Source: Branchiostoma lanceolatum (Eukaryota; Chordata; Leptocardii; Amphioxiformes; Branchiostomatidae). Taken from it: a stretch of 64,000 nt of DNA. The stretch lies in NCBI RefSeq assembly GCF_035083965.1, contig NC_089739.1:6126001-6190000 (forward strand). The letters are read 5' to 3'. Shown here piece after piece: positions 3,195 through 56,594 of the stretch. A program made the translations under genes and the position numbers. Below the pieces are notes generated by a model that saw only the letters and a program-made list of their open reading frames with translations, searched no databases and was not told where the DNA came from. Within the stretch, counting starts at the first letter, position 1. Each line of letters begins with the position of its first letter.

Positions 3195-23934
<20,740 letters not shown>

Positions 23935-24021: not shown

Positions 24022-24234
24022 ACATCATTTCCAAGCAGATACTCTGGTTGGTGCGGCAGTTCCTATGGGTCTGAACCTATGGGTACTGTTTTGTAGCCCG
24101 AAAGATCAGTTTCGAGATTGAATAAAACCGACTGCTCTCGATACAGTATAGAAATGTGTGTATGTGGTGTGTGTGGCAGTATCTGTGTCTCCACGTGCGC
24201 ATGCTTGCGTTTGTGCGTGCGTTTGTTTCTGTAC

Positions 24235-24394
<160 letters not shown>

Positions 24395-24503
24395 GTATAT
24401 GTGTGTGCGTGTGCGTTGCTTACTGAATCCACAGTTTCACTATATGATCATCGTTTAAAAAAAGACAACAAGTCCATTGTACGAATGATTATTCGATCAC
24501 CCT

Positions 24504-24509
24504 TTTATT
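24504..24509 (-). terminator. Candidate poly(A) signal for the ENTPD gene
   Basis: AATAAA on the minus strand about 215 bp past the ENTPD stop. It is the nearest good signal that I see. Confidence 0.4.
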
Positions 24510-24722
24510 GGACAAAACAAAGCATTACACCAAATGCGTATTAAAAGAATATCTCATGACCAGTGTAGACATGTAATCGTCTCCCAAAAAGTACAAAGGA
24601 AAATATACGAAAATGTAAAACACAAAGAACAATCATGACCTTCTAAAATTGAAGGTTAATAATGCGAAACAGTTTTTCAGTTAGCTAAAAGCAATTCGAC
24701 AGTCATATCTTAAATTGGCTTT

Positions 24723-27700
24723 CTAAGAGGTCCACATCAGAGACAAGCTGGCCAAAATTAAGTCGAGTGACGTAGCAGTCACGTGACTAGCAGATCCGGT
24801 AGCGAACTGGATGTTCAGTAGATACAGCTCGTACATCATAGATCCTAGAGCCCAGCCTGAAGAATCAACCGATCAACCAATCAATCAATCAACCTACCGA
24901 TCAAAATGCGCATTTTCTAGTTAGGTTTTCATACTTTGTGACACAAAAAAGATCAACAGAGAGAAATCATGTATAATACAGGGCACAAAATACATTATGC
25001 TGTATCATCCTTACAGGTACAAATGAAGATTTATTCGATCAAAATGTGCATTTTCTAGTTAGGTTTTCATACTTTGTGACACAAAAAAAGATCAACAGAG
25101 AGAAATTATGTATAATACAGCGCACAAAATACATTATGCTGTATCATCCTTACAGATACAAATGTAGATTTATTTGTGATATTTGTAGATGATGATATAA
25201 ATGTAGATATACGGATAGAAATATCAGATAGAAAGATAGACGGATAGGAATTAGATCACTAAATAGATGTAGGGAGTCGAAATTGATATAAAGGGTCACT
25301 TACCTATCTCCACGCCGTTAATTTCCTCGGTGATGTAGACTTTATCGGTTGCATTTCTATCAATCTTGTAACCGTCGCTTAACAATGCGGCGATGTAGTT
25401 TCCGGCGGCGCACCTGGTGTAACCGTACTCTCCTGATTGGTTGGTCGCCTGTGCGTAGGAGAGTGCGCAGAAGTCGTCCGTCTTTCCTTGGATGTTGTTT
25501 ACGCTCGTGAACCCGCCTGAATGGTATACAAACAGAATTTATATCGAAAACCAGAGCAGGCTGCTAGGAAGCCCAAGCCTGCACCACTTTTTTCCTTACA
25601 TCCAAAGCTATCTGCTGTCAAGACCATAGAATGTCCAGGACAAAACATACAAAAATCGAAGGTATTGCTGCAGTACCAAGATCACACACCAGGGTGCCCA
25701 AAATCGACCTTGACCTTCGTCTTCCTTAGACCAAGGAGGTTATATATACATAACCTCCTTGTCTACACCTACCCACATACCAAATATTATCGTAATCCAT
25801 CCAGAGGTCCGTGGGTTACGCTGAGACACACAGACACGCAAAAAAATATACCCCCACTTTTCATGGAGGTAACAGATATTCTGTACACCGAAAAACAAAA
25901 GCGTTGTTTTTTAAAAGTGCTTACCGTTTTTGTTAACCGCACCGACGCCACCACCTACTTGAGAGACGTAGTAGTAGGCTGCAGTGGCGTAGAACACGGA
26001 GTCCCCCACGGGAGGCTGGTACTCGCCGATGATGCTGCACGGCTCGGTGTAACACGTGTCGTTCAGGCCCAGCAGCTGCCTGACCAGCGCCCGGCACTGA
26101 CGGTTAGGATTCCCGGTACCTACAAAGCACAGCAGTCTATTAGTAACTGTTTCAAAATTCTATCCATTTATTACCCTGGGATCCAGAGCATATGTACAGG
26201 CCCGCGCTCCGAGTTACCCGGGCCTACCCTTCCGCTCCCCCCGAAGATCTACCCCGCCCCACTATCCGCTAGCCACCCAATCTCCTCAACCGTACAAAGT
26301 GTAGAGCTGAGCTTGTTTGGCTAGCGGGAAGTGGGGCGGGGTACGTTGTCGGGCCAGCGGGAGGGTAGGTCCGAGGAAGCTCCGGGCGCGGGCCGGTGTA
26401 GGTCCGGGGAAGCTCGGTACAATTGCTATGGATTCCAGGGTATCCATTTATTTGAGTAGCTGTCATACATTTGGCGAATCTTATTACCTGGATGTCCAAC
26501 CTTCATCAACGCAGTCTATTAGTAAGTCACTTCAATGTATCTCGGCATAATGACAACGATGAAGAAGAACTACACGTTAAATGAGTATTAAAACATCATG
26601 CAGCTACCGTCAGTTATTTAATCCATCGTTTCTTAAAAAGCTGCAATTGACTTCGAATTCGTCGCACGATTCAACTTTTTAGCGAGACTGAGAAAGAAGC
26701 AATCGACGTATTTCTAAAGACACGCCCACAGACAGCTGAAGTTTTTTAAAGACACATCCACGACTGTCTCAAGATTGACATCAATTTGCTGTCTAAAACC
26801 TTAACCTAAACGAGTTTTGTCGTAAGTTTTAAGGTTTACATCCCTATTTTTTCACCCACGGGACTATGACGTACGTATCTTCCTCCACGATGCATGGTTA
26901 AACCTGAATAATACGTAACGTGCGTGGTCTAGGGCCGAGCAACTCGGCCTCTGGACCTATAATGATCAGCCAACTTACACGTGCAAACACACAATAGAAT
27001 ACTGACAGAACTTACCCTTTATCTTTGCCACCTTACTATCCCCAATGTCTACAGCACTGTTGTAGCCCTGGAGGTCACACGGGTTTTCGATGGTGGCTGT
27101 AACAAAAAGAGGTTTAAAGACAGCTACATGATATTATTGACTAGAGGGCTGACTGTAACATAGACAACGGTTAGCATGAAAGTTTATCTGAGACTGAGTT
27201 GATAAATTATATTATGCATGAAAATGTTCAGCTGTTCTCCAACTAAACAAATTTTATCACACACTAATTTTCGACTGAATGACTCAGTCCTCTTCAGGTA
27301 CTTGAACCAATCCCTTCGGACACGTGACTTTATGCACGTCTTACGTAAGAAATGGATCAGCTGTTGTTGGAAGTCGATATCGCCTCCCGTCCAGGTTGAG
27401 AGAAGGTCACGTGTGCATTATCTATAAAGTCACGTGTCCAGGCGCTTGAGTCACGTAGCCGAAAAGTACGGATTCAGTCAAAATTCCTGATGATTCCATT
27501 TCTTATAAACAGTTCAAAACCCCCATATATTGATAGACAATGGTTACATGAAATATTGAAAAAAACTTGAATGAGGATTTTGACACTGACCGTTTTTGTC
27601 AGTCGCCTGCTGGTAGAGGTATTGGTACATCTGCAACCTGAACTGGTCCAGTCCGAACTTCAGGAAGCTGTTGGTGTAGAGGTCGTACCGCTTCCCAGCG

Positions 27701-29736
27701 ATGTACAGCGGGAACAGGTTGGCGTAGAACTGGCCGGTAGGGAGGAAGGTGATCTGGGTCGACCCTCCTCCCATGTCCAGGGCACCAAATGTCTTCATGT
27801 CGCTGCAATATATCACTTACAGGTTGAAATCATCTAAAATCTCAGTTCAAACAAGGTGCTTGCAGTCACGTGATTATGACGTAGTTCTGTCCGCCATGTT
27901 GGACGGTTAAAACCGGAAGTTCCCAGGCAGGAGAACAAAATTCCTTTAGCATTAGCTCCGTTGAAACGGAGGTAGTGTTTTGGGTTGGTGTGTTTGTTTG
28001 TCTTGGTGTGTGTTCGTAGTTATGTTGATATTGTAGACCGACAGGAAGTGAGGCGGAAGATTGCGTAACTGGAGACTGGCAGGATGGGAAAGTTTAATAG
28101 CTTGGCCCTGTTCCATCATATTCGAATGTCTTGTTATATACATTTCTCGTTACTTCTTTCTGCTACTTATCTTTTAGAGTTTAATGTTGATTGTTTGGCC
28201 CTGACGTAGATTGCATATTTCTTACTCTAATCACAAAATGACATGAATCACTTTAGAATATCTTGACGTTGCCCAGTATAAAACGGTGTGTCCACGACTT
28301 ACGTTTTAGAGTCGAAGACGCCCTTCAAGAAGTTGACCGTGATCCAGCCGTAAACTCCTTCCTCTTCTCCAGAGATGACCTTGGCCCAGCCACGCTCGAA
28401 CTTGAAGGGGTTGAAGGTCGGGTTCTGGAAGAGCTCGTTGATTTGATCGAAGATGGCGTCGGCGTCAGCCGGCTTTAACAGTCGCATCCCTGTTTCACAA
28501 ATAGTTCCGTCTCTTTTATATCATTGCTCAGTCCTCTATATCCATAAGACAAACTCATATCTTATGATCGGCTTATGATTTTTTCAATAATCTATTCCAA
28601 ATAAGAGTTGATATTATGATTTCTTCTTTCATATTTTGTTTTGTTTTGTTTACTTTAAACATGTTTCCGAAAACGTATCCGGGTCTGCCCCTATCAATTT
28701 TGTTTGGTAATGTATATTCCAGTTCGTTAATCTGCACATCAATGTTTATAAAGTTGAAATTAAATAATGTAGTATGGCAAGGACGTAATCATCCTACCTG
28801 CCGTAGCTTTTAAGTAAACCGGCGTGCTGCTGTGCAGTTCCTTTGGCACCGCCGCTTTGGCGCTGTACAACAGCAGGATGAGCGCAGTCTTCACGAACTG
28901 CGGGCTGGCGACGTACGAGCTGATACCTGGCCGCACCTGAAAAGAAAATAGAGAGTTATAATTGCATTTCAAGAAAGTTTCCAACAAAAACACACCTGCT
29001 GTTCCAAGAGAATCTGCTAGGGGGCTCAAAACAATACCACTTGTACCTGCACATCAAAAAACCATGACCATTGTTTGAACAAGAACATGAGATACCAAAA
29101 TCGGAAATTCTGTTGCAGTACCATAGTAACTCGCAAGGGGCACTGAGCCTATTCGTGGTACTAGTGATAGATACGTTCATGTGCTTTATTTTCGACCGTC
29201 ATAGAATAGAATTTGCAATCCATAAAGTTGAAACTTTATGAAATTCAACTGATTACTTACTAGTCCGTAGACAAGGCATATGTTAAACTCTACATATACA
29301 ACACCCATTCACACCGTCTAGGCGGGCTCATGGTTCCAACTGCGCATGCACAGTGTGATGCATTGTGGGAAATATGTCAAAGGTGATGGGCCCTGGGACA
29401 TAAACGAATCACGTCTGGACATGTATTAAGCATGATGGTCTAGACAAGAACTGTTCCTACCTAGCTCGAACATGTGCCGTTCAAAACATGAAACAATTTA
29501 TACACTCTGACCTTTCTGGTTCCGGACAGTTTCAGTTCTGTTAAATCTGCCTTCTTTGTCGGAAGGCTATTCCGGTCCCACCTATAGACGTGAAGTTTAG
29601 TCGAACTACTACCAGCATCGAAGATGACACCGTATCGATAGTTATGGGAGGCACGCCCGACTCTTGCCGAAGACACGAAGACGATGACGCCGAGAAAAAC
29701 CGAAAGAACGAAGCAGACACGAAGGTTGGGCTCCAT
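24723..29736 (-). CDS. Ecto-nucleoside triphosphate diphosphohydrolase (ENTPD), 8 exons
   Basis: Hydrolyses extracellular or luminal nucleoside tri- and diphosphates (GDA1/CD39 family). Coding exons in transcript order: 29512-29736, 28798-28936, 28303-28489, 27591-27802, 27016-27096, 25925-26119, 25304-25516 and 24723-24856. All phases agree; the product is 461 residues. The five apyrase-conserved regions are present: DAGSSSTK (~40-47), KATAGMR (~118-124), GEEEGVYGWITVN (~162-174), LDMGGGSTQ (~192-200) and GWALG (~418-422). Residues 1-20, MEPNLRVCFVLSVFLGVIVF, form a signal anchor. The ENPCDLQGY segment resembles the surface ENTPD1/2/3/8 group more than soluble ENTPD5/6; the exact subtype is open. 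The C-terminus has only a short hydrophobic run (LDLILASLSLMW) where surface members carry a full membrane helix. ATG 29736 precedes the only signal anchor. Confidence 0.92.
24899..25173. repeat. 138-bp direct tandem duplication in last ENTPD intron
   Basis: 24899-25036 and 25037-25173 are nearly identical (both GATCAAAATG-GCATTTTCTAG ... CATTATGCTGTATCATCC ... TTTATT), with a handful of differences. Recent local duplication; no ORF. Confidence 0.9.
25732..25761. repeat. Perfect small hairpin, ENTPD intron 6
   Basis: CAAGGAGGTTAT and its inverse ATAACCTCCTTG around a short AT loop. A related palindrome (AAGGAGATTAAATATATTTA then ACCTCCTTT) lies at 38551-38580, and GGAGGTTATATA recurs near 31180, so this is probably a very short element end. 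Confidence 0.6.
26172..26442. mobile_element. MULE-type MITE with 9-bp target duplication, ENTPD intron 5
   Basis: Termini TACCCTGGGATCCA and TGGATTCCAGGGTA, closely related to the element at 17665-17862, with GC-rich arms (CCGCCCCACTATCCGCTAGC region and its inverse). Flanked by a perfect 9-bp direct repeat, TCCATTTAT (26163-26171 and 26443-26451). 271 bp, non-coding. Confidence 0.88.
27960..28090 (-). repeat. Dispersed repeat in ENTPD intron 3
   Basis: The block TGTTTGTCTTGGTGTGTG recurs at about 14982-15000 in CEMIP intron 13, and the AAACGGAGGTA-TGTTTT block recurs near 6558-6580, where GTGTGTGTTTGTG follows. Partial copies of one family. Confidence 0.45.
29337..29405. repeat. Short dispersed repeat (GCATTGTGGGAAATATGTCAA)
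   Basis: Related stretches: 11355-11420 (AATGCATTGTCGGTAAGATG then TCAAAGTTGAAGG) and 40590-40650 (GATGCATTCTGGGACCGAAA then TGTCAAAGGTC). The copy at 40590 lies in sulfatase copy B and is missing from copy A at the same place, so it moved or was lost after the duplication. Confidence 0.5.
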
Positions 29737-32700
29737 CTCTCAGTCTTCCGAAACAAGATGGGGGATGATCCTGAAAATAAGCAATGTGGACCATGTATTC
29801 GTCACAGCTGGCTGTACGTTTTCCAGCAGATGGTACTGTCTTGTAAAGAGCTAATTGGGTCTATGAATGTCCAATATATAGTAATAATGGTTGTTTATTC
29901 TCATATAAAAGAGTGGCAGGGTCCCATGTAGGAACCCTGAATTGATCTGCCGCTTATCACATTTAAAATATCATAGTTAAAACTACATTAATTACACACA
30001 GTTACCGGCACGTAAATTTTTCAATTAAAAGTTTTTTTGCATTAAATTCTCGAATTAAAAGTTTCTCACGTTCGTAGCGGGTCGAACTAAGCTGTGGCAA
30101 CAGGTAGTTTTTTTACAGTATGTTATGGTTTGTTGTCCTTATTCACGGTGTAAACATATACGATGCGTGGCGTGCGTTCAACAGCCCGTCAGGAACTGTG
30201 GAAAATCATCAGAAATTCACAATTTTTACTGGCTGATATCAAGTCTAAGTATCCACAACAATATTATCTACTTGTGTCATGCATATATATCGACGGATTT
30301 CACCGAGGATAGCATCTCTCCGCCGACTCAGATGACTCAACACTGCTTCCTATTGGGGACGCCTTTCCCGCGCCGCCCGTTTACCGTTTGCTTACTTTTC
30401 CCGTGCTCAAATAACGCGCGCTCGCGCCAGATTCAAAATGGCGCCGGTATTTGGAAAGGGGTCTATTGTGGAACCCTGCAGGTCACTTCGCCAGAACGCT
30501 TGAATATCAATAAGGAAGTTTTATCATCTCGATTGTCTCGACGCGTTTTGAAAGCCTACAAACTGTGAAAATCTATGACCAACAAAACAGAATGAACTGC
30601 AATACATTCAGTTTCATCGGTAATAAGTTATAAGCACTTTCATAACAGAACATAAGCGTAGCGAGTTCGTGAAAGAGCGTCGAAAATAACAAACAAAATG
30701 GCGTCGCCGCACCGGCCCGCAACATGTTTTTGACGGTCTTGTAACGTTTGAGATGAGACTTACGAAAATACAAAAATGCTTATGTATGGACTGAGTTTTG
30801 TTTCTTAAAATTCTTATTCCACTTATCAGCCTGCCAGATCGGTAGAATTGTCATTCTTCGAGCCCCGAATACACTTATCATGCACTGAGTAATAGGTGCC
30901 GAGTCGTCCTGAGCTTGGTGCCGAGTTGTCTTGAATGGCCAGGGGCCGAGTTGTCCCAGGGGCCGAGTTGTCTCGGATTCGTATGGTCGAAGCGGTTGAA
31001 TGCTTTTGAGTAGTCTGTTAGGACGAGACTACTCGCTGTGCCGGCGCGGTCGGAGTTCTTGTATATGTAATGTAACATTACCCAACAACTTAAAGCACAC
31101 AGTTGCTCAGTTTTCCTAATTTGAGACTTAATGCACATGTCTTAACCTTGATGATCACTGTGTACGTGATTTTCATAGGAGGTTATATATTAGACGATAA
31201 TGTTCGACAGATGCGTGTGTGATCGTCTTTGCAAGGCGCTAGCTCCGGCGATGCGTATCTAAAGCACAACTTTTGTTGTCAACCCGTAATCGAATTAATC
31301 TGTGTCTAGTTTCGACTACGTTATACTGTAGATATCTTCAAACTATATATCGTTGAATGTTATCTACTTTGTACGGATTGTGATATTTCTTAAGTTCGCT
31401 AGACGCAGTAAACGGTGAAAACATCGGACATATATAAGGATAAAAAAAGCATTAAATGTCTTGTAATGATGGTCCTTTTAAAACTGAAATGCGGACAAAC
31501 CGGTCTTTTGCGTGTGAATAATTAAACAAGGTATTTCGAGAATGCTCTGGAGACTACAAAACATTTGTATTAAAAATCACTACTACGTCTGCTATGCGTT
31601 CAGTTTCTTAAAATAACAAGGTGAAATGTAACTTACTATTGATCTATATGCCAGCGACTCTTAATCATACGAGAAACCGGATACTTTTAAGTTACGAATC
31701 TCAAGCTTATGGCTAATCTGAACAATAGCACAACAGTTAGATACACACTCTTATGTATTGCTTTTATAACAAATATGAAGTGTTATAATACTGGCGAATC
31801 GTAGTACAGTCTATCATATAAAGTCTAACGATTTGCTTTATAATGCATGTATGTAGGAATTATTGTAGTAGCTTCATAGGTTATATAGGACAACAATGTT
31901 GAAATAGACAGTAGTTTATACGTATACTACCCCATAGCATATAACACATCTTTAATGACATACATAGTATTCTAAGAATGTTGCATGAATAAAAAGTGAA
32001 GCACATCACATACCTGTGCATGTGATTTTACAACCTTTCACACAAAGCCTTGTTGACACGCAATTTTACAGGTCCGTATCTGACCGACACGTCACATGTG
32101 CTAGCCAGCTGAAGCTAGCGTATCTAATAGTTCTCGTGACGTCATAGTCGCCTAACCAATCGGACGCCACAACATATTTTAAGCTAATCAGAATAACCGC
32201 GAGGATATAGAGACCCTTTTTCCATCTGAAATTCTCCAACGTGTACTAGTAACATTCATTGGCTTTTTCATTCGTCTTTAATCGAATACGTTGCTTTTAG
32301 AAAATAAAAAGATTTTTTATTCAGAGCATGAACATACGAGTTTGCCGTACATCAAACGAAATACATGTAACAGGAAATCAAAGACATTTAATGTTTGTCC
32401 GGCTGAGGCTTGCACATGGATCTCTTTATTATATAAATTTATACATTTTTACCCAACAATCCTCTACAAACACCAACTTCATGAAGTTTGATTCAATGCA
32501 TACCACTGTCCATAAGCTTTCAAACAGTCAAAGTCTATTGCAAAACATTATCTATTTTCCATATGAAAAATGGCGTAATGTCATACAGTATTCATTAGAT
32601 TCTTCAACACTTCTATCTTTGCATGGGTTGTTCATAAACGTTGATATTATTTCTATAGGCAAATTCATTGTTAATTGATGAAATAAATACAATTTAATAA

Positions 32701-33378: not shown

Positions 33379-36300
33379 TTACATCTGTATCTCAAGGGAG
33401 GACAAATCGACATCTTCCCGACAATTGCAAGAAGGAAAGTTGCAACATGGTTGCAACCAAGGACGAGGAAAGAATAGCGGCATGTTGAACTGGTTGTCCA
33501 CTTCAGTCAGGCTTTGCTTGTGTTCCTCAACAGCCTTCTTGATGACGTCAAGAACTTCTCGGTATTTCGGGTAGGAGTCGGCGGTGATTGGTCGGTCTTC
33601 TGTAGGGTCGTTAGTGACGTCAAACAGCAATGGCGGATCGTTGAAGGTGACCCCAAATTGAACATTACAGAAGCAGGCAAGTTGTTGGTCACCGCAGTGT
33701 GTTGTACCGGGAGCCCAGGGGTAGGACGCGAGGTGAGCTTTCCACGTCACATTTCCTCAGAGAAAAACAAACAAACAATCACACAGCGTACTTATAGATG
33801 TAGAAAAGAACATCTACATCAAAGTAGAACGATATGTGCAGAACAATTTCTAACCATAGAGTGCTTGAACTTTGCACTCACGTGATTATGACGTAAGTAT
33901 TGTACGCTATACTGGATCGTCAAACCTCGAAATGGCCGGGTTCTACCTAGTACCCCAGAACCAGGCTCCAGATAAAAAGGCAATAAAATAACCCAGCCCC
34001 AAATCTATTGTTCAATTGGTAGCGGCTTCGCAGTTGAGCCTCCTGTTTCCAATTAGTTTGATCAGGGAGACCCGGGATCGAATCCCGGGAAGGGCATCCT
34101 TGTCGGAGCTGCACCGTCTTTCGGAGGAGACGAAAAATGGGAGTTCCGCGTGTTCGAGGAGGTGCCTCGAGTGCGTTACAACAGCCTCATTACTCACATG
34201 GGTACCTACTGGCTGAAATAATACAACCTGGTGAATTTTTATCAAAGAATTGTTTGCCTTAGACCTAAGATATTTTCTTTTAATGCCTTGTTCAAACTTC
34301 ATTTAGCATAACTCACCTTTCTTAGGTCTGTACCGCACAGCATGCAGGACATTACCACAGTAGTGGAACATGAAGTCGTGTGGAGACGGTTGCTTGGCCC
34401 CGCCTAGCAACGGCAGGATGTTCCGCCCGTCCATCACCCTGTCCTGGGGAAGCGGGGCCTGGAGGATGTCTGCTACCGTGGGGAAAATGTCCATCTGACT
34501 CGTGGGCTCCGTGACTACAGTACCGGCCTTGATTTTTCTGTGAAACGTACGAAGAAAAGCATAAGATAGATGCATTACAAAGAAGTAAATTAAGATGTCT
34601 ACTTAGTAAGACATGCTTGTGAAAAAAATCGCATGCAGACATCTATGACTAAACAGTTCTCAATGCAAAAGTGCAGCAATAGACCTGTTTTCGACATTTT
34701 GGAATCTGCTCACGCGAGAGCACAGTCTGACGAGATTTATGTGCGAGAGTTGAAATTATTGGAAGCAACAGATCTACCTTGGCCACTGTACAAGTGTAGG
34801 CATGCGGATCCCTCCTTCAGAGCCTCCTTGGCCTTTACTACCTGTAAGATCGGGTGCAAGGTACTTAGAATGTAAATATTTCTAATATTTGCATGAACGG
34901 AAATTAATATATGCATCCACATATGAGTAATGTGGTTTTAGTTTTAGATTCTATCAAAATGATTGTAAGAAACTTTAGAATCATTTTGACGACGTGTCAC
35001 ACCAGTAAGATGCTTTAAAACATTTTATTCCTATGGGACTTTTGCATGTAACGTCACGTCTTTTAAAATCGAAAAAGTACTCCGCCGCGATGATGGAAGT
35101 GAATTAATCCAAGATGGCGACCGATGGATCGGAACGGACTTCCTGATTCTAACAACAAAGTCATTTGCATGGTGTGCTGTCCTATCTATTCGAAAAGATC
35201 AGGCAACCAAGTAGACCTAGAAAATAAATAATTGGACTGAGCATTTGCCTCGACTAGGCACGTGGTTTCAATCCACCAATATGGCGGACTCTAATAGAAG
35301 GCACGTCAAAGTCACGTGACTACAAACACCTTACGGCCTTACCTTTGTACATGCCGTTCCACCCTCCGGCATCTCCTATTTCCATATGGGCGCCGTTGTC
35401 AGATGTGAAGTACACAAAGGTGTTGTTTGTCAAACCCAGCCTGTCTAACGTTGCCATGACGACCCCGATGCTCCAATCCATCTCCTCCACAGCGTCGCCA
35501 TAGAGACCGTGTCGGCTTTTCCCGCGGAATTCCTTATAAGGTAAAAGGGCGGTGTGTGGATTCCAGTAAGAGACTTCAATTAAGAAGGGTTCCTTCTTTT
35601 CTTTCCTTTCTTCAAGGAATTTGACGGCGTCAAGTGTCATCCTGGGAGTGAGGGTAGAAACGTCGTATGGCTGCTCTATGACGTCATCATCTCTCATCAT
35701 GACACAGTTGAAAACTCTGCCATTGGCCCAATAGACATATGTACATATCACAGCTGACCAGCCGACAACAGACAGCACAATGACAGTTTTCCACTGAATG
35801 TACTGGAAATACTTGAGTGCCGAAAGGCAAAGGAAAAGGCTGACTGCTATCTCCCATACGTAGAAGTCGGTATACACTATATTGGTGATAAACTTCGCCG
35901 TGGCTCCCGTCCCCCCCTCGCTCACATCGTCCGGATCGCACTCGGGCGCGTTTGTACCAGGAAACCCATAGAAGTAGTCGAACCCGAATTTGTTGGGGTG
36001 GTGGCAGTGGTCTCCTACCCATTTGCAGTTTAGACCAAGATGCCATTTTCCTACAAAAAAGAAACGTCCCAAATACTCAAGTTAGCTTGCCTGGAGATCA
36101 TTATATCTGTAATGATTATTTTATTCATCAATAACAACAAACAACAAAACAACAAATTTCATCTGACCTATCAGTGCTGTCTGGTACCCGTGATCCTTTG
36201 CCATCTGAGGAAAAGTGACCTCTGACCTCGGTAGCCCGGATGCAGCAGCCAGAAATGCGTAGGCCAAAGGTCGATCCGTTCCCGCCATACCTTTATGATT

Positions 36301-40018: not shown

Positions 40019-43000
40019 TTAGACTCTGACTTTAAGGGAAGAAAAATCAACATCTTCCCGACAATTGCAAGAAGGAAAGTTGCAACATGGTTGCAACCAA
40101 GGACGGGGAAAGAATAGCGGCATTGTGAACTGGTTGTCCACTGGAGTCAGGCTTTGCTTGTGTTCCTCAACAGCCTTCTGGATGACGTCAAGAACTTCTC
40201 GGTATTTCGGGTAGGAGTCGGCGGTGATTAGTCGGTCTTCTGTAGGGTCGTTAGTGACGTCATACAGCAATGGCGGATCGTTGAAGGTGACTCCCCATTG
40301 AACATCGCAGAAGCAGGCAATTTGTTGGTCACCACAGTGTGTTGTACCGGGAGCCCAGGGGTAGGAAGCGAAGTGAGCTTTCCACGTCACATTTCCTTTG
40401 AGAAAACAAACAAAGAAGCAATGACACATAGTAATCATAAATATAGAAAAGACCATCTGCATCAAAGTAGAACAACATGTGCAGAACAATTTCTTCTCAA
40501 GGTTCTAGTAGCTGTTTCCTCCTTTTTTCGCACGCTGACAGAAACTGTTGGCGCCTGGATAGAAACTGTACTACGTAATTTCCTGGCCCAGACGATGCAT
40601 TCTGGGACCGAAATGTCAAAGGTCACCGGGAACTGTGGGAAGCGTGAAATTAGTGAATAGAGTGTTTGAACTTTGCACTCACGTGATTATGACGTAAGTA
40701 TTGTACGCCATACTGGATCGTTAAACCTCGAAATTGCCGGGTTCCACCAAGAACCCCAGAACCAGGCTCCAGATAAAAAGACGATAACCCAGCCCAAAAT
40801 CTATTGTTTATTAAAGAATTGTTTGCCTAAGATCCAAAATACATAAATGCATTGTTCAAACTTCATTAGCATAACTCACCTTTCTTAGGTCTGTACCTTA
40901 CAGCATGCAGGATATTTCCACAGTAGTGAAACATGAAGTCGTGTGGAGACGGTTGCTTGGCCCCGCCTAGCAACGGCAGGATGTTCCGCCCGTCCATCAC
41001 CCTGTCCTGGGGAAGCGGGGCCTGGAGGATGTCTGCTACCGTGGGGAAAATGTCCATCTGACTCGTGGGCTCCGTGACTACAGTACCGGCCTTGATTTTT
41101 CTGTGAAACGTACAAAGAAAAGTATAAGATAGATGCATTGCGAAGTAGTAAATGAAGAATTCTACTTATAGTAAGACATGCTTGTGAAAAAAATTGCATG
41201 CAGGCATCTCCTACTACTAAACAGTTCTCAATGCAAAAGTGCAACAATAGACCTGTTTTCGCCATTTTGGAATCTGCTCACGCGAGAGCACAGTCTGACG
41301 AGAATGTGCGAGAGTTGAAATGATTGGAAGCAACCGATCTACCTTGGCCACTGCACAAGTGTAGGCATGCGGATTCCTCCTTCAGACCCTCCTTGCCCTT
41401 TACTGCCTGTAAGAGCGGATACAAGGTACTTGTAAATATTTCTAATATTTGCATTTGCGAAAAAGAATATATGCATCCACATGTAAATAATGTGGTTTTA
41501 GTTTTAGAACCTATCAAAATGATTGTAAGAAACTTAAGAATTGTTTTGACGACGTGTCAAACCAGTAAGACTTTAAAACCTTTTATGCCTATGTGACGTT
41601 TGCCTGTGACGTCACGACTTATAGATGACAAAACGAATAGTTGGACTGAGCCTTTGCCTCGACTAGGCACGTGGGTTCAAGCCACCAAAATGGCGGACAC
41701 TATGGCACGTCAAAGTCACGTGATTGAGAATTCCCTTACCTTTATACATGCCGTTCCACCCTCCGGCATCTCCTATTTCCATATGGGCGCCGTTGTCAGA
41801 TGTGAAGTACACAAAGGTGTTGTTTGTCAAACCCAGCCTGTCTAACGTTGCCATGACAACCCCGATGCTCCAGTCCATCTCCTCCACGGCGTCGCCATAG
41901 AGACCGTGTCGGCTTTTCCCGCGGAATTCCTTATAAGGTAAAAGGGCGGTGTGTGCGTTCCAGTAAGGGACTTCCAGCAAGAAGGGTTCCTTCTTTTCTT
42001 TCCTTTCTTTAAGGAATCTGACGGCTTCAAGGGTCATCCTCGGAGTGAGGGTAGAAACATCATATGGCTGCTCTATGACGTCATCATCTCTCATCATGAC
42101 GCAGTTGATCACTCTGCCATTCATCCAATAGACATATGTACATATCACAGCTGACCAGCCGATGACAGACAGCACTATAACAGTTTTCCACTGAATGCAC
42201 TGGAAATACTTGAGCGTCAAAAGGACAAGGAAAACGCTGACTGCTATCTCCCATATGTAGAGTCGGGTATAGAATCTATTAGTGGCAAACTTCGCCGTGG
42301 CTCCCGTCCCCCCCTCGCTCACATCGTCCGGATCGCACTCGGGCGCGTTTGTTCCAGGAAACCCATAGAAGTAGTCGAACCCGAATTTGTTGGGGTGGTG
42401 GCAGTGGTCTCCTACCCATTTGCAATTTAAACCAAGATGCCATTTTCCTACAAAAAAGAAACGTCCCAAATACTCGTTAGCTTGCCTGGAGATCATTACA
42501 TCTATAGTGATTATCTTATTAATTAAAAACAAGAAACAACAAAACAATTAATAACATCTCACCTATCAGTGCTGTCTGGTACCCATGATCCTTTGCCATC
42601 TGAGGGAAAGTGACCTCTGACCTTGGTAGCCCGGATGGAGCAGCCAGCCATACGTAGGCCAAAGGTTGATCCGTTCCCGCCATTCCTTTGTCATGATTAT
42701 AAAGGGAGATATTGAATTTATCATAATGTGATATATTTGTATGTAATATATGATAGGTACACATTTTCTGCTGGTAGGCAAGAAACATTTCATGGGTGTG
42801 TGTACGTACAAGAAAAAGCGACTAGTATTCCATGATTTACCAACTACTTTTGCATGAAATACACACAATCTCCGACAGAGATCGCTGGTTCTATTTGTGA
42901 AATGCGCAACCGATGACGTACCTACGTCATACAGGACCAGCAAGTTCTGGTGCAACGACAAGCAACGACAAGAGCTGATTTGATTTGATTTACTAGTATT

Positions 43001-47705: not shown

Positions 47706-48949
47706 CATCTAGTTTGTCTGAAATATACGTAACCTGCCATTTTCTTTGAACGGTAAACTTCAAGTAGAAACACGCAAGCTTAAAGTGTTTTACTTGAAAT
47801 ACCTTAAGTGGATAGACAAGTGGTTATGCCAAAACGCTTTCCGAAAGATCCTCAGTTGTACAGAAAAACATGTCATGACTCCATTACGTGACAGTAAGGC
47901 AGGGTTTGAAGGAACATTCATGTACATTTGTATGTCTGTAGCCCTGACACTCTTTTGTACATGTGTCGAAAATCTGTCATTTCCCCTACAAGCATTGTGA
48001 TGTAAATAGGTCAGTGTATTCAGTAAAGCGTGTCAGGGGCAATTTATGACAGACACCTGTATCGTTACTGTTTTTTTTTACGTCGTTTGACTAACAGATT
48101 CTTGTGTTACATTGGACTATGTAGGAGTGCGTACAGAGTTGGAAGGTCAACGCTTCGAACACTATTTTGGCCATGTATTTGAAATACATTTTACGAAAGC
48201 GTTTGACGTAAACAATACCTGACACCTTTACGCCGTGCATTCTATTCAAACCATCTTGATTGTTATCATAATGTTGTATCGAATCAGGCACGTGTAATAA
48301 GCCGATACTAAGAGGGAGGGGGTAATGTTTGCTTTCTTTGAAGGTTTAGTGGGTGGAAGGCGTTTGATCCTTCTTTGCACTTGTCAATGTGCCTTTGTCT
48401 CTAAAGCACACCGCCTATCTTAAGAGCTAATTGACTCACCGTACAAAGAAAAGCTTTGCTGTGTCACGCTCTTACTTTACCACCCTTGTAACCACAAACC
48501 AACCTGATTGTCAGCATTTAAGACATGCCAAAATAATGTGTAGGTCTGAATTATATGTCAGGATTTGCAAAGAAAATCCGTTTGTTAACAATGGGTCATA
48601 AGATTGTGGTCTTTATCGACCACATTCTAATCCCCAAGTAGAAGTATTTATTCTAGTAATATCCTAGTATTCATCCTAGTCTTTCTTCCTACTAGGAAAA
48701 TTGCAAGCTTGACTACCATTCCCTGTAACATGAACCTCATCGCTGAGAGTGTTTGTGTCAATGACGTCACGCCTTCGAGATTTGCATACTATATATGGTT
48801 AGGTCGCATAAGCTGCACATGCGCGAGATCAGACAATAGTCGAATAGAGATTAGCGCCTAAGCTCTTAAGATTATTTACTTTGTCTGTGGTCTTGTTAAA
48901 CCGGTTGTGACTGACATATGGTAAAAAAATGAAACATGTATTAGTATGG

Positions 48950-49155
48950 AGGTCCCGTGTTTGAGGAGAGCCACACCTCGAGCACGTTAAAGAACCCACT
49001 GCACTTATCGAAAAGAGTAGCGGGTCCTTCCCAGTGTGAGTGTTTCAAAACCTTACTGTTACAGTCCTATGGCCGCATATGGGTTCCCCCTTCGTAATAG
49101 CCTCCGGCTAGTTGGGCAACCCTGGAATGTACATGCTGAACCAATAAATAAATGT
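48950..49155 (+). mobile_element. SINE 3' half ending just before the secreted-protein gene
   Basis: GGAGGTCCCGTGTTTGAGGA, GAGCCACACCTCGAGCACG, CTTATCGAAAAGAGTAG, then ATGGGTTCCCCCTTCGTAAT and the tail CCAATAAATAAA, matching 8560-8785. It ends about 50 bp before the acceptor of the next gene. Confidence 0.8.
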
Positions 49156-49213
49156 ATCAGTAACTTTTCTTACTGAAATTGATTTGTTTTACTTTTTTGA
49201 ATTTCAGGCCACA

Positions 49214-50440
49214 ATGAGGGTGTTGAACTTTGTGCTGTTGTTTGGTCTACTAGCGACCACCTTGTCCAAGGACGTCGTCAAGGTTAACAAAGGCTTGGCT
49301 AAAAATGATGACGTCAAGTGGACAAAGATTATCGGGCAGGTACACAAGATCATCCGCAAACTCCCGCGAGATTTGCAACTTCCGGCGACCAAGCTCGTTT
49401 TCCAGTTACCCAAACTCTTCGAGAATCTTTTGAAGTCAAAAGATTCCTATTTGCAAAACCCGGCTGAAATGTTGAAGATGATTGGATTCGGATTGATGGA
49501 AACTTGGACATTCGTCCTGAACAATTTATCGGAAGAAGTGAAAGGAGACGTCATGAAGGTACTCAGAGGGATGTCAGATCTCGCGAGACTTAAAAACGAG
49601 ATGTCCAACATCCGGGGTAAACTCCCACAATTCCAAGATATCAACCTTCAGACAGATGTGCCGGAAGCTCTCAACAAAATCCAGAAGGATGTTCCCAAAC
49701 TTTGGAAAAATATCCAAAAGAAACTGCCTAAGACACTAAGCACTGATTATAAAAGTTTGCTGAAGCATCTTCCAGATGAAAAACAAGTCAGACAAATCGT
49801 ATACTCTCTTCTGACCATTCTTGATGAAAAACTACCCAGTCTCGCCTCCTACGATACAACAAATATCGCCAGCCATTTGAAAGACTTTGAGAAACATGTG
49901 CCAGAAGCGTCGAGAGAAATAGTTACGGCTGCTTTCCAAGCGTTGACGACGTTCCAAGAAAAGTTTCCAGATCTGAGCAATCTTACCGTGACCGGTAAAA
50001 TGATTCGGGTTCACGTTCCCGTGTTGGTGAGACAAGCTGTGGACAACTTTCCTGACCTTAAATCTGCAACCATTGATGTAAAAAGATTAGAATCAGAATT
50101 ACACAATTTACTAGCACAAGTTAAGAATGGCCTCCCTGGCTTAATGCAAAGTTTGAGCGCCAAATTTCCTGATCTAAGTCAATGGAAACCCGAATCCTTG
50201 CCTGACGTTTTTCTAGAAGTCGCTAGGTGGATAGGTGACCTACTGGTAGGGGGTCCCGCGAGATTGCCAGATATGAGTCAATTGTCTAAAGAACAGGGTG
50301 GCATGATGAAGACTTTGTTCGCTTCTGCTGGAACAAAACTGAAATTCATTGCCCACAATATTACTCAGCACCTCTCTGATGGTATTCAGTATGTCAAAGA
50401 AAATCTACCAGAACAAAATCCAGACAGAAACGAATTGTGA
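49214..50440 (+). CDS. Secreted, Cys-free, proline-punctuated 11/22-mer protein (unassigned)
   Basis: I do not recognise a named family. A 408-residue protein in one coding exon. A good acceptor (GAATTTCAG, AG at 49206-49207) just before ATG 49214 implies an upstream untranslated exon; the in-frame ATG at 49184 lies before that acceptor and is disfavoured. MRVLNFVLLFGLLATTLS is a clear signal peptide. No cysteine; sequons near N104, N256 and N382. Prolines, nearly always after L, V or F, stand at 138, 150, 161, 172, 187, 208, 230, 252, 269, 280, 308, 319, 330 and 352: gaps of 11, 22 or close to it. Between them lie amphipathic helix-like segments rich in K, E, D, L and V. This is the layout of exchangeable apolipoproteins, but the residues do not match a specific one. 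Lipid-surface binding is inference. Confidence 0.85.
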   Translation: MRVLNFVLLFGLLATTLSKDVVKVNKGLAKNDDVKWTKIIGQVHKIIRKLPRDLQLPATKLVFQLPKLFENLLKSKDSYLQNPAEMLKMIGFGLMETWTFVLNNLSEEVKGDVMKVLRGMSDLARLKNEMSNIRGKLPQFQDINLQTDVPEALNKIQKDVPKLWKNIQKKLPKTLSTDYKSLLKHLPDEKQVRQIVYSLLTILDEKLPSLASYDTTNIASHLKDFEKHVPEASREIVTAAFQALTTFQEKFPDLSNLTVTGKMIRVHVPVLVRQAVDNFPDLKSATIDVKRLESELHNLLAQVKNGLPGLMQSLSAKFPDLSQWKPESLPDVFLEVARWIGDLLVGGPARLPDMSQLSKEQGGMMKTLFASAGTKLKFIAHNITQHLSDGIQYVKENLPEQNPDRNEL

Positions 50441-53400
50441 TGTGAGAAATCTAAGATCTTTTTTACATGATGTTGGAATAAATGTTACACAAATCAGTTA
50501 TGCAAATAAGCGGATTCTACTGTATCTTGATAATATTAATTGATGCAATGGAGGCCTTACAATCTGCAATGTTTAATCACGTAGTTCTATTTTGTCACTA
50601 CCGATCCATACACCTCTGGTTTCACACGAATCAAAGTTTATGCAATGTGTTTGTAATGTTTGTACATTTTCATATAAATCAATAAATCGTATGACCGGGT
50701 CTTTTATTCAGATTGAAAACAAAAAGAAAACCTGTACAGTGACTGTGTCTTGTGATTAAACATTAATTGCTAATTGCAAATTTGTAGTTTGCATTGATTC
50801 AATGTCCGAGGTATAGGGATGGTAGCAAAATAACACAGAGCTATACTTATCTAATAAAAAGGAAATCTAACACAAATTTTGGATATTTTGTCAATTTTTT
50901 TTTACCAACGAAGCTAACAAACTAGTAAATGCCTAGTATATAATCGAATGTAGCACTTCCTTGCTGTGATTAGTAATTGTAGTAATTACTAGTAATTGTA
51001 CTTAATAATGATGATGATGTAATTAACGACGCATTGGTGTCAAAACAATCTAGACTAATAGCGGTAGATAATGTAAATAGTATGACGTAGGCATGACGTC
51101 ATGAAAGTTACGAATGTTTTGATTGGCTAATAGGCCGATGACATCATCGTTCTTGCAACTATAGCTAGCAGCATGCAGGTATTGGTGACGTCAAGGTAAA
51201 AATGAGTCGTTTGGAAACATTTAGGAAGTTATGTTTTTATCTTGAAGCATTTAATCTCTCCGAGGACATGATATAATCAACGCACGCCCATATATGAAGT
51301 AGTGCAATCATTCTGTAAATTAGTTGACGTCACAATACTACGCTACAAAAATACTGTATTCGAAAAGCCCGTAACAGACAACTCATCGAACTCCAGTGCA
51401 CCATATACTGAAAGGTTCGTTTTCTTTTGCAATTGTGAGGTCTTTTTTCAATGTAACGTATAAGGGGGCCTGGAATATTTCTTTCCCAATCGTAACTATC
51501 TTTATTTGTTGATGTATTTTGATGCGAGGTAGGTATCGAAGTCCTAGCGGTTTAATTTAGCCTCATTTGCAGGATTTCTGAACGGCTTCAGCGTTTTTCT
51601 TGGGGGGGGGGCGCTGATTTGTGATTTTCAACATATTGGAGCATGGTCCTTTTGCTGGAGAAATCTGCGATCGGCAAATTCTAAATAATATAGTCAAGTC
51701 ATCTCCCTAGATTATTTCTAGATTGTCCATTTGGTCCTTCAAAACAGGGTAGAATTGGACCGCATCACGCAACAGGTGGTGGCGTACGTGTGATCTTTGT
51801 AACGCCACGCCCCTTCACCATATTTGGAAGTAGCGTGTTCAGGTCAAACGGGGTCACGGTTCATGTGTCTTGCCGCGTGCTGTTACGTATGCACTGCGGA
51901 AGTTACTCCTCTCTTCGAAGTAGCAATTAGTCACATCCTGAAAACCTTAATATACTTGTAAGCTTTTATTTTACATATCTTAAAATGTTGCCAGATCCAT
52001 GACTATGCATTCGGGGAAGACGCTGCACCAACACAAGCGGAAATAATTGTACAGTTTTCTTTAAGGTTGTGACCTATTTTACAATTACAGTACTTCTTAT
52101 TCTTATCGCCAAGAAATCAGCTGACTTACGTAACAACACAACAAGCTACGGATACGTCTTAACGTTCAAGCCTGGAAGAAGCCATCGTTTCAAAGGTAAG
52201 ACTACCAGACTTAAAGTCTAAAGTTTGGTTTCCACTTAGTTATTCTTTGAGATAGCTTTGTGTAAGAATGTGTAATTGTACTAAGGGCCCTACATATGTT
52301 ATAGTTAGTGGTATACGTTGTTTTTAAAGAATGCACTTGCAAATGTTGCGGTCATTTTGAACAAGGTGCATGTCGTCTTGTCATTCAGTGACTTTTATAC
52401 TTGGGGGGTCGCGAATCTGGGTAGTCGTTTAGAGTAACTTCCTCCCTAAAGAGAGTAAACCCCTTTAGTTGGCCCCACGCCCTCGACCTTAACAGGCAAG
52501 ATTTGTGTCATTTGCCCTGGGCTCTACTCGTGACGTTTGGACTATGTTCTACTGTTGTTCCCGTTCTGATATACATATCATAAAATATTTTGAAAGGTTT
52601 TCAAGCAATAAACGTGCTTTACCGTAAATTTACTACATACAAGGGGTGCAATTACGAAAACAGATGGCCCAAATGTGTCATTTAATCGTGATTCTCACCT
52701 CGCGGTGTTGTTTGGTATTGTTTGATACCCCTCTCATTTTACCTGCACATTTGAATGAGGGTAGTCGGTAAGTTCGTAATGTTGCCGTGCCATCGTCCAA
52801 ACACTTTAGATTTTTAAATCTACCAAGTCGTTTCCTGAAATCATTTCTCATAGTGTTTTCTATCCTTGTACATAAACCACTCCCACGCCGACTTAAACTA
52901 TCTTTTTTTAAATGTATGTAGGTCAAAGTTGTAAGAGCATTTTAGCACTCTGATTTGGCAAATTTTAACAACATATATCATGTTGATTTATTTATTAGTT
53001 AACTATGTTTGCACGCACTGGAAGTTACGTAATGTCCCGATTTCTTGCGTATTCAACTGTAGTGTTTGCACAGCTACGGTAGCTAGGCACAAAGGTCGGG
53101 ATCTCTTCTGTTGTCCTCGTGTGTTGTGCTTGAGGCCAATGTACAAAAAGCTATGCTAAAATAACATTGTAGCTAGTCTCGAAGTGAGATTTTCTCTTGA
53201 ATACACCGTAGTTACTAATTCAGTACCAACTTCCATTATCGTACAACAACTAAATAAATATGCTTCCTAGCTACACATACTGTAAAAGAAGAATATCATT
53301 ATTTGATAACATATACAAATGGCGTGCTAAAATAACACCGTAGCAAGCCGTGAAATGAGATCTCTTAAGTACACTGCAGTTTATATCACTAATTCAGTAC

Positions 53401-53734: not shown

Positions 53735-56594
53735 ATGTCAGCAATGGAGCAGACGGCATCGCCCCCTAGCGGTTACGTGTGTAACCTCAGCGCAGAGGCT
53801 CTGAAGAAGGCGCGAGAAGAACTAAACGAGGATCCAACCACTAGACTGGCTATGGTGGAAGCTCTCAGGGAAAGAATTCAGCAAAGACCCGATCTCTGTG
53901 TCCAAGACGATGATCACATCCTTCTCAGGTTCCTTCGAGCGAGATATTTCGACGTCGAACAAGCATTCAAGGTAGAGTATAAGTATATGAGTATGACAAA
54001 AAATCATCAGAATGTTTATTGTTTTTTTACAGCGCATCCAACCGTGCAATTTTGCATACTGGCAAATCAACTTCACACGAGACTCTGACATAGACTCGCA
54101 AGATTTTATGATATGATCTCTCGCGAGAGTGCGTGAGTCTCACGAGAAGATAAAAACTTCGGCTTCTCTAAGATCTAAGTTTTATGATATCTAGCCGTTT
54201 TGATGTGTAATCATGTTTTTGATAACCACCGCACATTGCTAGCAAAGAGTTATGATTCTTAGATAATTAACATACAAATTATGTCTGTAAATATACAGTT
54301 GTTGGAGAAATACCACGTATGGCGAACTCACAGTCCAAAAATCTGCAGTAACATGCGCCCCTCCAGTGTGCGGGGACTACTAGAGGCGGGCTACCATGCC
54401 GCGCTGCCGGGTAGAGACCAAGATGGCAGGAAGGTCATGTTTTACAGAATAGGTAAGGACATTCCTCTGGCGTTTGCATGTGCCAAACTAGTTAAAAGTT
54501 TTACAATGTTTGATTCAAGTCCAGTATTTTGAATCCTCGTGCAGTGAAAGCCGATAACGCATATACTCTGTGGTAATAGGCAAAACATAATCAATACAAA
54601 ATTCAATATTTTTTAGCACCAAAATCACACAGAAAAGAAGTCGAAGTCGAACAAAGGGGAAAAAACAGCAAGACACGAAATAAACATGCGAGTATAAAAT
54701 AGCGACAGATATACTAGTGCTTTGTGTGCAATTGCTGATATTTCCTATATATACCATATAATTTTTTCCACAGGAAAATGGGATCCCTCCCAATTTTCTG
54801 CGTACGAGGTTTTTCGATTGAGTCTAATCAGCTCGGAGAAGATCATCCAAGAGGAGGATACTCAGGTTAGATAATCTGTCGATTAGAATATGGTAATCTT
54901 GCGATCGAATTAGGTTAACGCATTCTCCTCCATAGGCCACCATATCATGAATCTTCGCATGATGAGAAAAATGGAGAAATCTCGGTAATGCAGGTGTTAA
55001 AGCGAAATCATTATCATGGCAACATAGAGACGGCGCGGACACAACGCACATGCGCCTCACATGCGTTGCCATGGTGATTCATCGCTTGCCCCCTGCGTTA
55101 CCCATAATTCCGTTATCCGGAACATGGTACCTCTTTCAGAAGTAACCCATAATTACGTTGTCCGGAACAAGACATCCATTTCAGAAGTAACCCATGATTC
55201 CGTTATCCGAAATATGACATCCGTTTTAGAAGTTACCCATAATTCCGTTATCCGGAATATGACACCTGTTTCTTCTCGCACAGGTTCATGGGATCGTTAT
55301 GATTGCGGACCTGACCGGACTCTCATTATCCCACGCCTGGCAAATCGGACCGCGAGTCGCCCAACAAATCGGGTCAATAACAACGGTAAGGATATGTCGG
55401 TGAACGTTAGACATCCAGGTGATAAGATATATACGCCAAATAACAAGTACTCAAGCAACAACCTTGTCGATTTAAATTCTACTGATGAACCATCCTCTTT
55501 TAACATATCAATCCAGGGTTTTGGTATAAAAACTTATTCTCCAGTTCTTCCCTTTAGTCACTGACAAAACTGATAGCGGGTGTTGTCTGAAACGTCAGAC
55601 TGTTTCAAGATTTCATCCAGTTGCTTGAGTAATTGTCATCTAGCGGTACTAAGGATACTAATGAGGATCTATGATCGTTTTCGCAATGTTAGAGCTTTTG
55701 CCACAAGTCTTTTTAAAATTTCTTTGCAATTCTTAGATTTTTTAAAGACATTCGTGCCTGTTGTGATTGGTTTCAGTTGTTTTTGTTTATTTGTTTGTTT
55801 GTTTTTTTGTCTGTTGACAGGATGCCTTTCCCATCCGGGTAAAGGAGATTCACCTACTTAATGAACCAATGGTGTTCAATGCCATCTTCGCCATCATCAA
55901 GCCATTCATGTCCGAGAAAATGAGAAACAGGGTGAGAACTCAAATTTGACAAATTCGCTAAAGTGACAAATTCAGAACTTTCGCTCAGAACTTTGAAATA
56001 GATTTTATGGCAGGCTTGGAAAACTGAATAGATTGAAAATTGAGTGAAATGATATATTGTAGTTCACACTAACATGAAATGAGCTACATGTATATGGAAT
56101 TCTGTATATTTTGGGCCTTTGCCTTCTAGTTCTAGGTAAAAGCTATGATTTGTATGAACCTGTAAAGTTTTACTATAGGTATATGATAACAGTTCATGAT
56201 ATGATAAAAGATACTCCAGACGAGGAAAATACCATTTTTGGAATTTTATCCATATTAGAACTTTTTTGTACCAGTATAAAGTTTTCTATGATACATTAAT
56301 ACACTAAAGATTGACAGACACATCAACGTAATTTTACCTCATTCCCAGATACACCTTCATGGACCCAAGACAGAGACGCTTCTGCAGTATGTGGACCGTG
56401 ATGCTTTGCCTCCGGAGTATGGCGGAACTGGCACCCCATTGGACGAGGCGTGCAGCCAATGGACGGAGACCCTTCTAGCCAGCGAAGACGAATTTTCCGC
56501 CATGTCTTATTCTAACCTAGAAGAAGTCACCGAAAAAAATGAAGTAGAGGAAGATGATGAGGTTGAAGAAGCTTCAGAAGTGGAGGAATGCTAG
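53735..56594 (+). CDS. TTPA: Alpha-tocopherol transfer protein-like CRAL-TRIO protein, 6 exons
   Basis: Cytosolic lipid-transfer protein of the SEC14/CRAL-TRIO family; human TTPA moves alpha-tocopherol to the plasma membrane for export on lipoproteins. Exons: 53735-53971, 54299-54452, 54774-54865, 55284-55385, 55821-55931 and 56349-56594; phases agree; 313 residues. CRAL-TRIO-N helices (ALKKAREELNED, HILLRFLRARYFDVEQAFK) are followed by the lipid-binding domain: ALPGRDQDGRKVMFYRIGKW, EVFRLSLISSEKIIQEEDTQ, GLSLSHAWQIGPRVAQQIGS, DAFPIRVKEIHLLNEPMVFN, IHLHG and LPPEYGG. The basic residues of PIRVK and KMRNR correspond to those reported to bind phosphoinositides in human TTPA. An acidic tail (EEDDEVEEASEVEEC) is longer than in human TTPA (278 residues). 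A good acceptor (CTCTATGTCAG) ends at 53741, so translation may start at ATG 53744 after an untranslated exon, giving 310 residues. Clavesin is the main alternative. Confidence 0.92.
55094..55275 (+). repeat. 45-bp minisatellite, ~4 units, before TTPA-like exon 4
   Basis: Units of the form GTTACCCATAATTCCGTTAT then CCGGAA-ATGACA-C-TTTCAGAA. The period is 45 bp, a multiple of three, so the array stays open in one frame and reads as a 15-residue repeat (EVTHNSVIRNMTPLS type). It ends about 10 bp before the acceptor AG at 55282-55283. I regard the long ORF over it as non-coding because exon 4 uses another frame. Confidence 0.85.

Follow-up and report, generated by a model that had tools for sequence, protein, structure and literature searches.

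A predicted secreted amphipathic-repeat protein of amphioxus with an apolipoprotein-like architecture, probably of independent origin

In the vertebrate genes for the apolipoproteins A1, A4, and E, introns interrupt both the codons of the signal peptide and the N-terminal part of the mature region, and insect apolipophorin-III is a secreted, Cys-poor protein composed of amphipathic helices. Perilipin 4 is not known to have a regular proline punctuation. In excerpts of PMC5889406, for which the term "11-mer repeat" was counted 8 times, this protein is described as coating lipid droplets by means of a long repetitive amphipathic helix, and an excerpt of PMC8000854 defines the class A helix by an acidic center of the polar face and a basic boundary. 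With respect to amphioxus and lamprey, excerpts of PMC7431520 report that APOA1 of Branchiostoma belcheri (BbAPOA1) is set apart from the vertebrate apolipoproteins in the tree, that the amphioxus and lamprey proteins contain 2 to 3 MEME motifs, and that motifs 4 and 5 of the lamprey protein LAL2 derive from amphioxus APOA1. According to the same excerpts, LAL1 and LAL2 are devoid of an integral apolipoprotein domain, the LAL2 genes lack introns, LAL2 has no clear internal duplication, and recombinant B. belcheri APOA1 binds LPS and LTA and acts on Gram-negative bacteria (PMC7431520, citing Wang 2019); the same amphioxus APOA1 paper is cited in an excerpt of PMC11260610. According to an excerpt of PMC10339998, B. 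belcheri has a VLDLR gene and six members of the LDLR family, and receptors of a lipoprotein system therefore exist in this species.

The window, i.e., the whole stretch of 64,000 nucleotides of Branchiostoma lanceolatum DNA that was analyzed, contains a gene whose product (P0001) resembles apoA-I and apoA-IV in its predicted secretion, the absence of Cys, the mean helical moment, the prolines at 11/22-residue steps, and the presence of internal repeats. No paper on this gene was recognized in the literature searched, although a name under which it could be looked up is lacking. The features of the locus are as follows.

49214..50440, plus strand: coding sequence of the predicted secreted, Cys-free amphipathic-repeat protein P0001, 408 aa
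49214..49267, plus strand: predicted signal peptide, residues 1-18 (MRVLNFVLLFGLLATTLS), from direct reading of the translation
49268..49624, plus strand: N-terminal region, residues 19-137, amphipathic, with few prolines (51, 57, 66, 83)
49625..50269, plus strand: proline-punctuated repeat region, residues 138-352, 11/22-residue units, typically [LVF]-P-[DEK]-L
50270..50437, plus strand: C-terminal region, residues 353-408, with prolines at 399 and 403 only
48790..48796, plus strand: TATA-like box TATATAT of a putative promoter
48921..49207, plus strand: putative first intron (GT..AG) with donor-like and acceptor-like sites, ending 6 bases before the ATG
50681..50686, plus strand: candidate polyadenylation signal AATAAA, with a second copy at 50477

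The coding sequence reads as a single exon, open from the signal peptide to the stop codon. It lies in a stop-free run of 430 codons; the longest such run among 60 Markov-random windows of 64 kb was 241. An earlier note on this DNA had read a signal peptide and no cysteine from the translation; both hold, the start being signal-peptide-like (MRVLNFVLLFGLLATTLS/KD, by direct reading) and the protein containing 22 Pro and no Cys. The pI is 9.25, the mature mass is ~44 kDa, and three N-glycosylation sequons are located at residues 104, 256, and 382. The only inferred intron of the gene lies upstream of the ATG, which would distinguish P0001 from the vertebrate apolipoprotein genes with their coding introns and would be reminiscent of the intronless LAL2 genes as described in the excerpts of PMC7431520. 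The donor-like site of this putative intron, ATG/GTAAAA at 48921, is one of eight GT[AG][AG] sites in the list for 48700 to 49180, and the acceptor-like site reads TTTCAG. If the intron is used, the in-frame ATG at 48918 to 48920 would add Met-Ala-Thr ahead of the annotated Met. The TATATAT at 48790 is the sole TATA[AT]A[AT] match within 48300 to 49214. The sequence CGTTAAAGAACCC at 48985, inside the putative intron, recurs on the minus strand at 559 and 2401 and is possibly a dispersed element, of a kind that appears to occur in Branchiostoma.

The proline spacing listed in the earlier note, i.e., successive gaps of 12, 11, 11, 15, 21, 22, 22, 17, 11, 28, 11, 11, and 22 between prolines that follow L, V, or F from residue 138 to 352, was exact for all 13 gaps; the rule excludes Pro 326 and 348 of the same region. 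Eight of these gaps are exact multiples of 11 versus 0.81 expected, a count reached in none of 5,000 random placements. When the 14 prolines of the region were restricted to sites after hydrophobic residues, 0 of 50,000 placements reached the observed spacing, and with a minimum gap of 10 in addition to this rule the expectation rose to 2.5 (p = 0.0004). Across the mature protein, multiples of 11 account for 8 of the 17 gaps between prolines after hydrophobic residues (p = 0.00125) and for 7 of the 21 gaps between all prolines (p = 0.0124), both p values being corrected for the scanning of periods k = 5 to 30, among which 11 was the best for either set. The proposed 11/22 period thus stood against random placement. 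Tandem 11/22-residue units begun by proline are present in P0001, less regular than in apoA-I. Gaps of 12, 15, 17, 21, and 28 break the register, a global phase lock at period 11 is absent (p = 0.22 for the prolines after L, V, or F in residues 138 to 352; p = 0.30 for all prolines), a proline phase scan over periods gave a p value of 0.23, and just 9 of the 21 gaps between all prolines deviate from a multiple of 11 by no more than one residue (p = 0.065).

A repeat signal is also seen at the level of residues. The best off-diagonal self-alignment of P0001 scores 129, above all 400 shuffles that kept the three-class pattern of hydrophobic, proline, and polar residues (maximum, 120; mean, 60) and above all 400 that kept seven residue classes (maximum, 128; mean, 75); the corresponding scores of apoA-I (158) and apoA-IV (337) each exceeded all 40 shuffles per kind. 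Because the seven-class maximum is just one point short of the score of P0001, part of the signal is mere pattern, and the remaining part appears to be residue-level ancestry. The motif KFPDLS does recur as had been claimed, with two copies at residues 250 and 317 and the variants NFPDLK and RLPDMS. Of three non-overlapping segments, two align loosely with the first (30 and 22% identity) and were not taken as proof, and repeats within the coding DNA comprise one weak family only (22 nt, 3 copies), so any duplications would be old. The internal duplication seen in P0001 sets it apart from LAL2 as described in the excerpts of PMC7431520. With respect to periodicity, the 11-residue period of P0001 is weaker than that of apoA-I. 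In the mature protein, the autocorrelation of hydrophobicity had z values of 4.7 (lag 7), 2.7 (lag 11), and 2.4 (lag 22). Residues 130 to 375 alone gave 2.3 for lag 11 and 0.25 for lag 22, and apoA-I gave 5.3 for lag 11 and 5.5 for lag 22. The residue-similarity autocorrelation of P0001 was 5.3, 5.2, and 4.7 at lags 7, 22, and 11 and only 1.3 at lag 33.

The amphipathic character that had been noted for the segments between the prolines was confirmed by a mean 18-residue helical moment of 0.380 (shuffles, 0.216; z = 9.2), level with apoA-I (0.379) and apoA-IV (0.399). Three stop-free exon stretches from other genes of the window, two with sulfatase domains and one without a Pfam match, stayed near their shuffles (z = -1.7, -0.7, and 1.3). 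For the mature protein as a whole, the power is highest at 98 degrees, as in a helix that makes three turns in 11 residues; for residues 130 to 375 it is highest at 100 degrees, as an ordinary helix also gives. Low moments are found in the segments 138-149 (0.08) and 252-268 (0.15). Ahead of the 22 prolines, positions -12, -8, -5, and -1 are hydrophobic in 18, 15, 17, and 18 cases, and the hydrophobic stripe is looser behind them (+2 and +3, 11/22 each; +6, 10/21; +10, 11/20). Regarding charge, strongly basic stretches include residues 19-50 (net charge, +6) and residues 161-171 (net charge, +4), and 14 of the 17 inter-proline segments listed (at least nine residues each) have a net charge between -2 and +1. 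Across six settings, 57 to 75% of the Lys and Arg residues are located in the polar center, and a significant difference between K/R and D/E at this place was found in none of the six (p = 0.16 to 0.62). An inverse class A charge layout, first suggested by a count able to take one residue twice, was not significant with each residue counted once and was dropped.

Overall, the shuffle tests support an apolipoprotein-like architecture, and the best explanation, with a rough probability of one half, is that P0001 is a basic secreted protein of amphipathic repeats that evolved independently and covers lipid or anionic surfaces. Such a Cys-free protein of ~44 kDa would be made of diverged 11-residue units that fold into amphipathic helices, each unit or unit pair being opened by a proline, with the hydrophobic stripe at -12, -8, -5, and -1 before this proline and a looser continuation at about +2/+3, +6, and +10. 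The helices would most likely lie flat on lipid or another amphiphilic surface; the 11-residue pitch would keep their hydrophobic side facing this surface, and the prolines would act as hinges that let the chain bend around a curved particle. Anionic surfaces, e.g., anionic phospholipid or bacterial LPS/LTA, are expected to be preferred over neutral HDL-type phospholipid, because P0001 is basic and, unlike in apoA-I, its Lys and Arg are not confined to the interface. The sequence features, amphipathicity, 11/22 spacing, repeat signal, and differences from apoA-I and apoA-IV were computed directly, and it is from them that we infer secretion, helix formation, lipid binding, the preferred surface, and the independent origin.

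A rather unlikely explanation, and the next to be weighed, is that P0001 is soluble and secreted, an all-helical bundle or a protein of helical repeats in which hydrophobic faces are packed together and prolines simply start the helices, with no or only incidental lipid binding. Soluble bundles of helices can likewise have high moments, and amphipathicity alone cannot separate bundles from lipid-surface proteins. Proline followed by D/E and Leu is a usual helix-start pattern, and in residues 138 to 352 an acidic residue directly follows 9 of the 16 prolines; the N-glycosylation sequons would also suit a soluble protein of this kind. The exact 11/22 spacing, on the other hand, beats the nulls that preserve the hydrophobic pattern, which is unexpected of a generic bundle, and in searches with P0001 the Pfam and NCBIfam matches all stayed below the cut-offs of their families and the PDB matches all had E values of 1 or more. 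The weak matches to a SURF1-like chain (E = 3.5) and a ribosomal eS17 chain (E = 1.1) in the PDB and the best NCBIfam match (E = 0.011, far below the cut-off) were rejected.

That P0001 is a very divergent true member of the apoA-I/A-IV/E family, perhaps the orthologue of BbAPOA1, is improbable. The overall design is the same, an amphioxus APOA1 has been published, and LAL2 was accepted as an apolipoprotein despite its lack of introns and of an integral apolipoprotein domain (excerpts of PMC7431520); LAL1, LAL2, and BbAPOA1, as chordate apolipoprotein-like proteins, were compared with P0001 by description only. The profile search against the apolipoprotein family in Pfam, however, did not bear out a relationship. 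PF01442 was not among the six families listed to an E value of 10 for P0001, in a search in which most matches with an E value over ~0.1 are removed by the HMMER filters, and it did not match any of three pieces of P0001 at E values of up to 1, whereas apoA-I (1.2e-67) and apoA-IV (1.7e-72) were readily found as positive controls in the same scan. Pairwise scores of 48 against apoA-I and 56 against apoA-IV exceed those of most full shuffles (p = 0.047 and 0.020) but are ordinary for pattern shuffles (p = 0.33 and 0.37), and the reversed P0001 scored 48 and 59. A profile comparison by hhalign gave a probability of 0.4 for P0001, below the 2.0 of its reversed sequence.

The proline register, the most informative of these comparisons, and the charge layout point in the same direction. 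Position -2 is hydrophobic at 1 of 22 prolines in P0001 versus 16 of 17 in apoA-I plus apoA-IV (Fisher p = 7e-9), position -1 at 18 of 22 versus 3 of 17 (p = 9e-5), and position +1 at 1 of 22 versus 13 of 17, the p values serving as guides only because the prolines of one protein are not independent. The count comprises all prolines of P0001, the seven of apoA-I past residue 60 (three N-terminal ones dropped), and ten of apoA-IV; in the two apolipoproteins, positions -9, -6, and -2 before the proline are hydrophobic in 13, 17, and 16 of 17 cases. The register of P0001 is thus one residue off that of apoA-I and apoA-IV, and for a unit shifted by one residue a separate origin is an easier explanation than the drift of each unit. 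ApoA-I showed a significant class A layout in five of the six settings, apoA-IV in four, and P0001 in none, and the pI of P0001 contrasts with 5.27 and 5.51 for apoA-I and apoA-IV. Family membership is not supported by these tests, to which the apparent absence of an intron in the coding frame may add, and the apolipoprotein-like architecture is probably independent of the vertebrate apoA/C/E family in origin. Between the two options left by the earlier note, an independent or a very divergent lipid-surface protein, the former is hence the better reading. Should the gene be the orthologue of BbAPOA1 after all, it would be a known one, and the register would give reason to re-examine the APOA1 naming.

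Least probable is a humoral defense protein, basic and amphipathic, whose main role is the binding of LPS/LTA and bacterial membranes instead of lipid carriage. The high pI, the basic stretches, the Lys and Arg of the polar center, and the LPS and LTA binding reported for recombinant BbAPOA1 (excerpts of PMC7431520) speak for it; the net charge of -2 to +1 in most of the inter-proline segments listed and the lack of a Pfam family above the cut-off speak against it.

The top Pfam match of P0001 was Baculo_PEP_C (PF04513; 23.4 bits, E = 6.7e-5), below the curated cut-off of 38 bits. Since the reversed P0001 (20.8 bits, E = 4.3e-4) and apoA-IV (44.6 bits) also match and two full shuffles gave nothing, this profile responds to a proline-punctuated amphipathic pattern, and the identity was rejected as a pattern effect. 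Caution is therefore advisable when PF04513 is used to annotate such proteins, as even human apoA-IV passes the cut-off (44.6 versus 38 bits). The tail-protein families phrog_1272 (E = 4.4e-4) and phrog_788 (E = 0.0018) of PHROG were dismissed by analogy, and VRR_NUC (E = 0.012, below the cut-off) was too weak. P0001 shares predicted secretion, Cys poverty, and predicted amphipathic helices with insect apolipophorin-III, but the family of the latter, PF07464, which apoA-IV matches at 4.6e-12, was not among the six Pfam families listed to E 10 for P0001. The likeness to perilipin 4, as far as it is described in the excerpts, lies in a long repetitive amphipathic helix; perilipin 4, however, is intracellular, and no perilipin family was among the Pfam matches of P0001. 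Pattern scans of prokaryotic and viral contigs yielded 85 and 8 stretches, none confirmed as a relative, and tblastn against phages returned 28 records, none significant (best E = 0.7); these collections are bacterial, archaeal, and viral and have no bearing on animal orthologues. Inside the 64-kb window, tblastn at E values of up to 1 returned the gene itself only.

If P0001 binds lipid, it would serve as a natural test for telling the features of apolipoproteins that are forced by physics, i.e., the 11-residue pitch and the proline hinges, from accidents of descent such as the proline register and the class A charges. It would then also bear on the question of when exchangeable apolipoproteins arose in chordates, for which PMC7431520 takes as its starting point an amphioxus APOA1 with a separate place in the tree. 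Tentatively, and with odds clearly short of even, an invertebrate chordate may possess its own independently evolved exchangeable-apolipoprotein analogue, so that the apolipoprotein design would have evolved at least twice in chordates; the 11/22 proline-hinged design would then have been reached with the proline one residue off and without class A charges.

The neighborhood of the gene is animal-like in its predicted domain content, with G8/ILEI, a CD39-type nucleotidase, two sulfatases, and CRAL-TRIO. An exon of a CRAL-TRIO lipid-transfer protein (CRAL_TRIO_N; 53735-54088, plus strand) is located 3.3 kb downstream of P0001, and both proteins may handle lipids; adjacency as such proves nothing. 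Frames with G8 and ILEI domains adjoin at 6200-7678 on the plus strand, an arrangement presumably like that of CEMIP-like proteins, and exons of a GDA1/CD39 family nucleotidase are found at 27544-29739 on the minus strand. Two tandem sulfatase genes on the minus strand (33379-36081 and 40019-42547) have exons that are near-identical by eye and, judged from these, represent a recent duplication; Pfam Sulfatase is present in the long exon of both copies and Sulfatase_C in the first. Both long frames contain a hydrophobic two-stretch insert, which ends at VICTYVYW in the first copy and which we take to resemble that of steryl-sulfatase-like enzymes. Long simple repeats occupy 12635-12919 (an ATG-type run, read as poly-Met), 15872-16540 (read as Thr-His), and 24063-24544 (read as Ile-Tyr).
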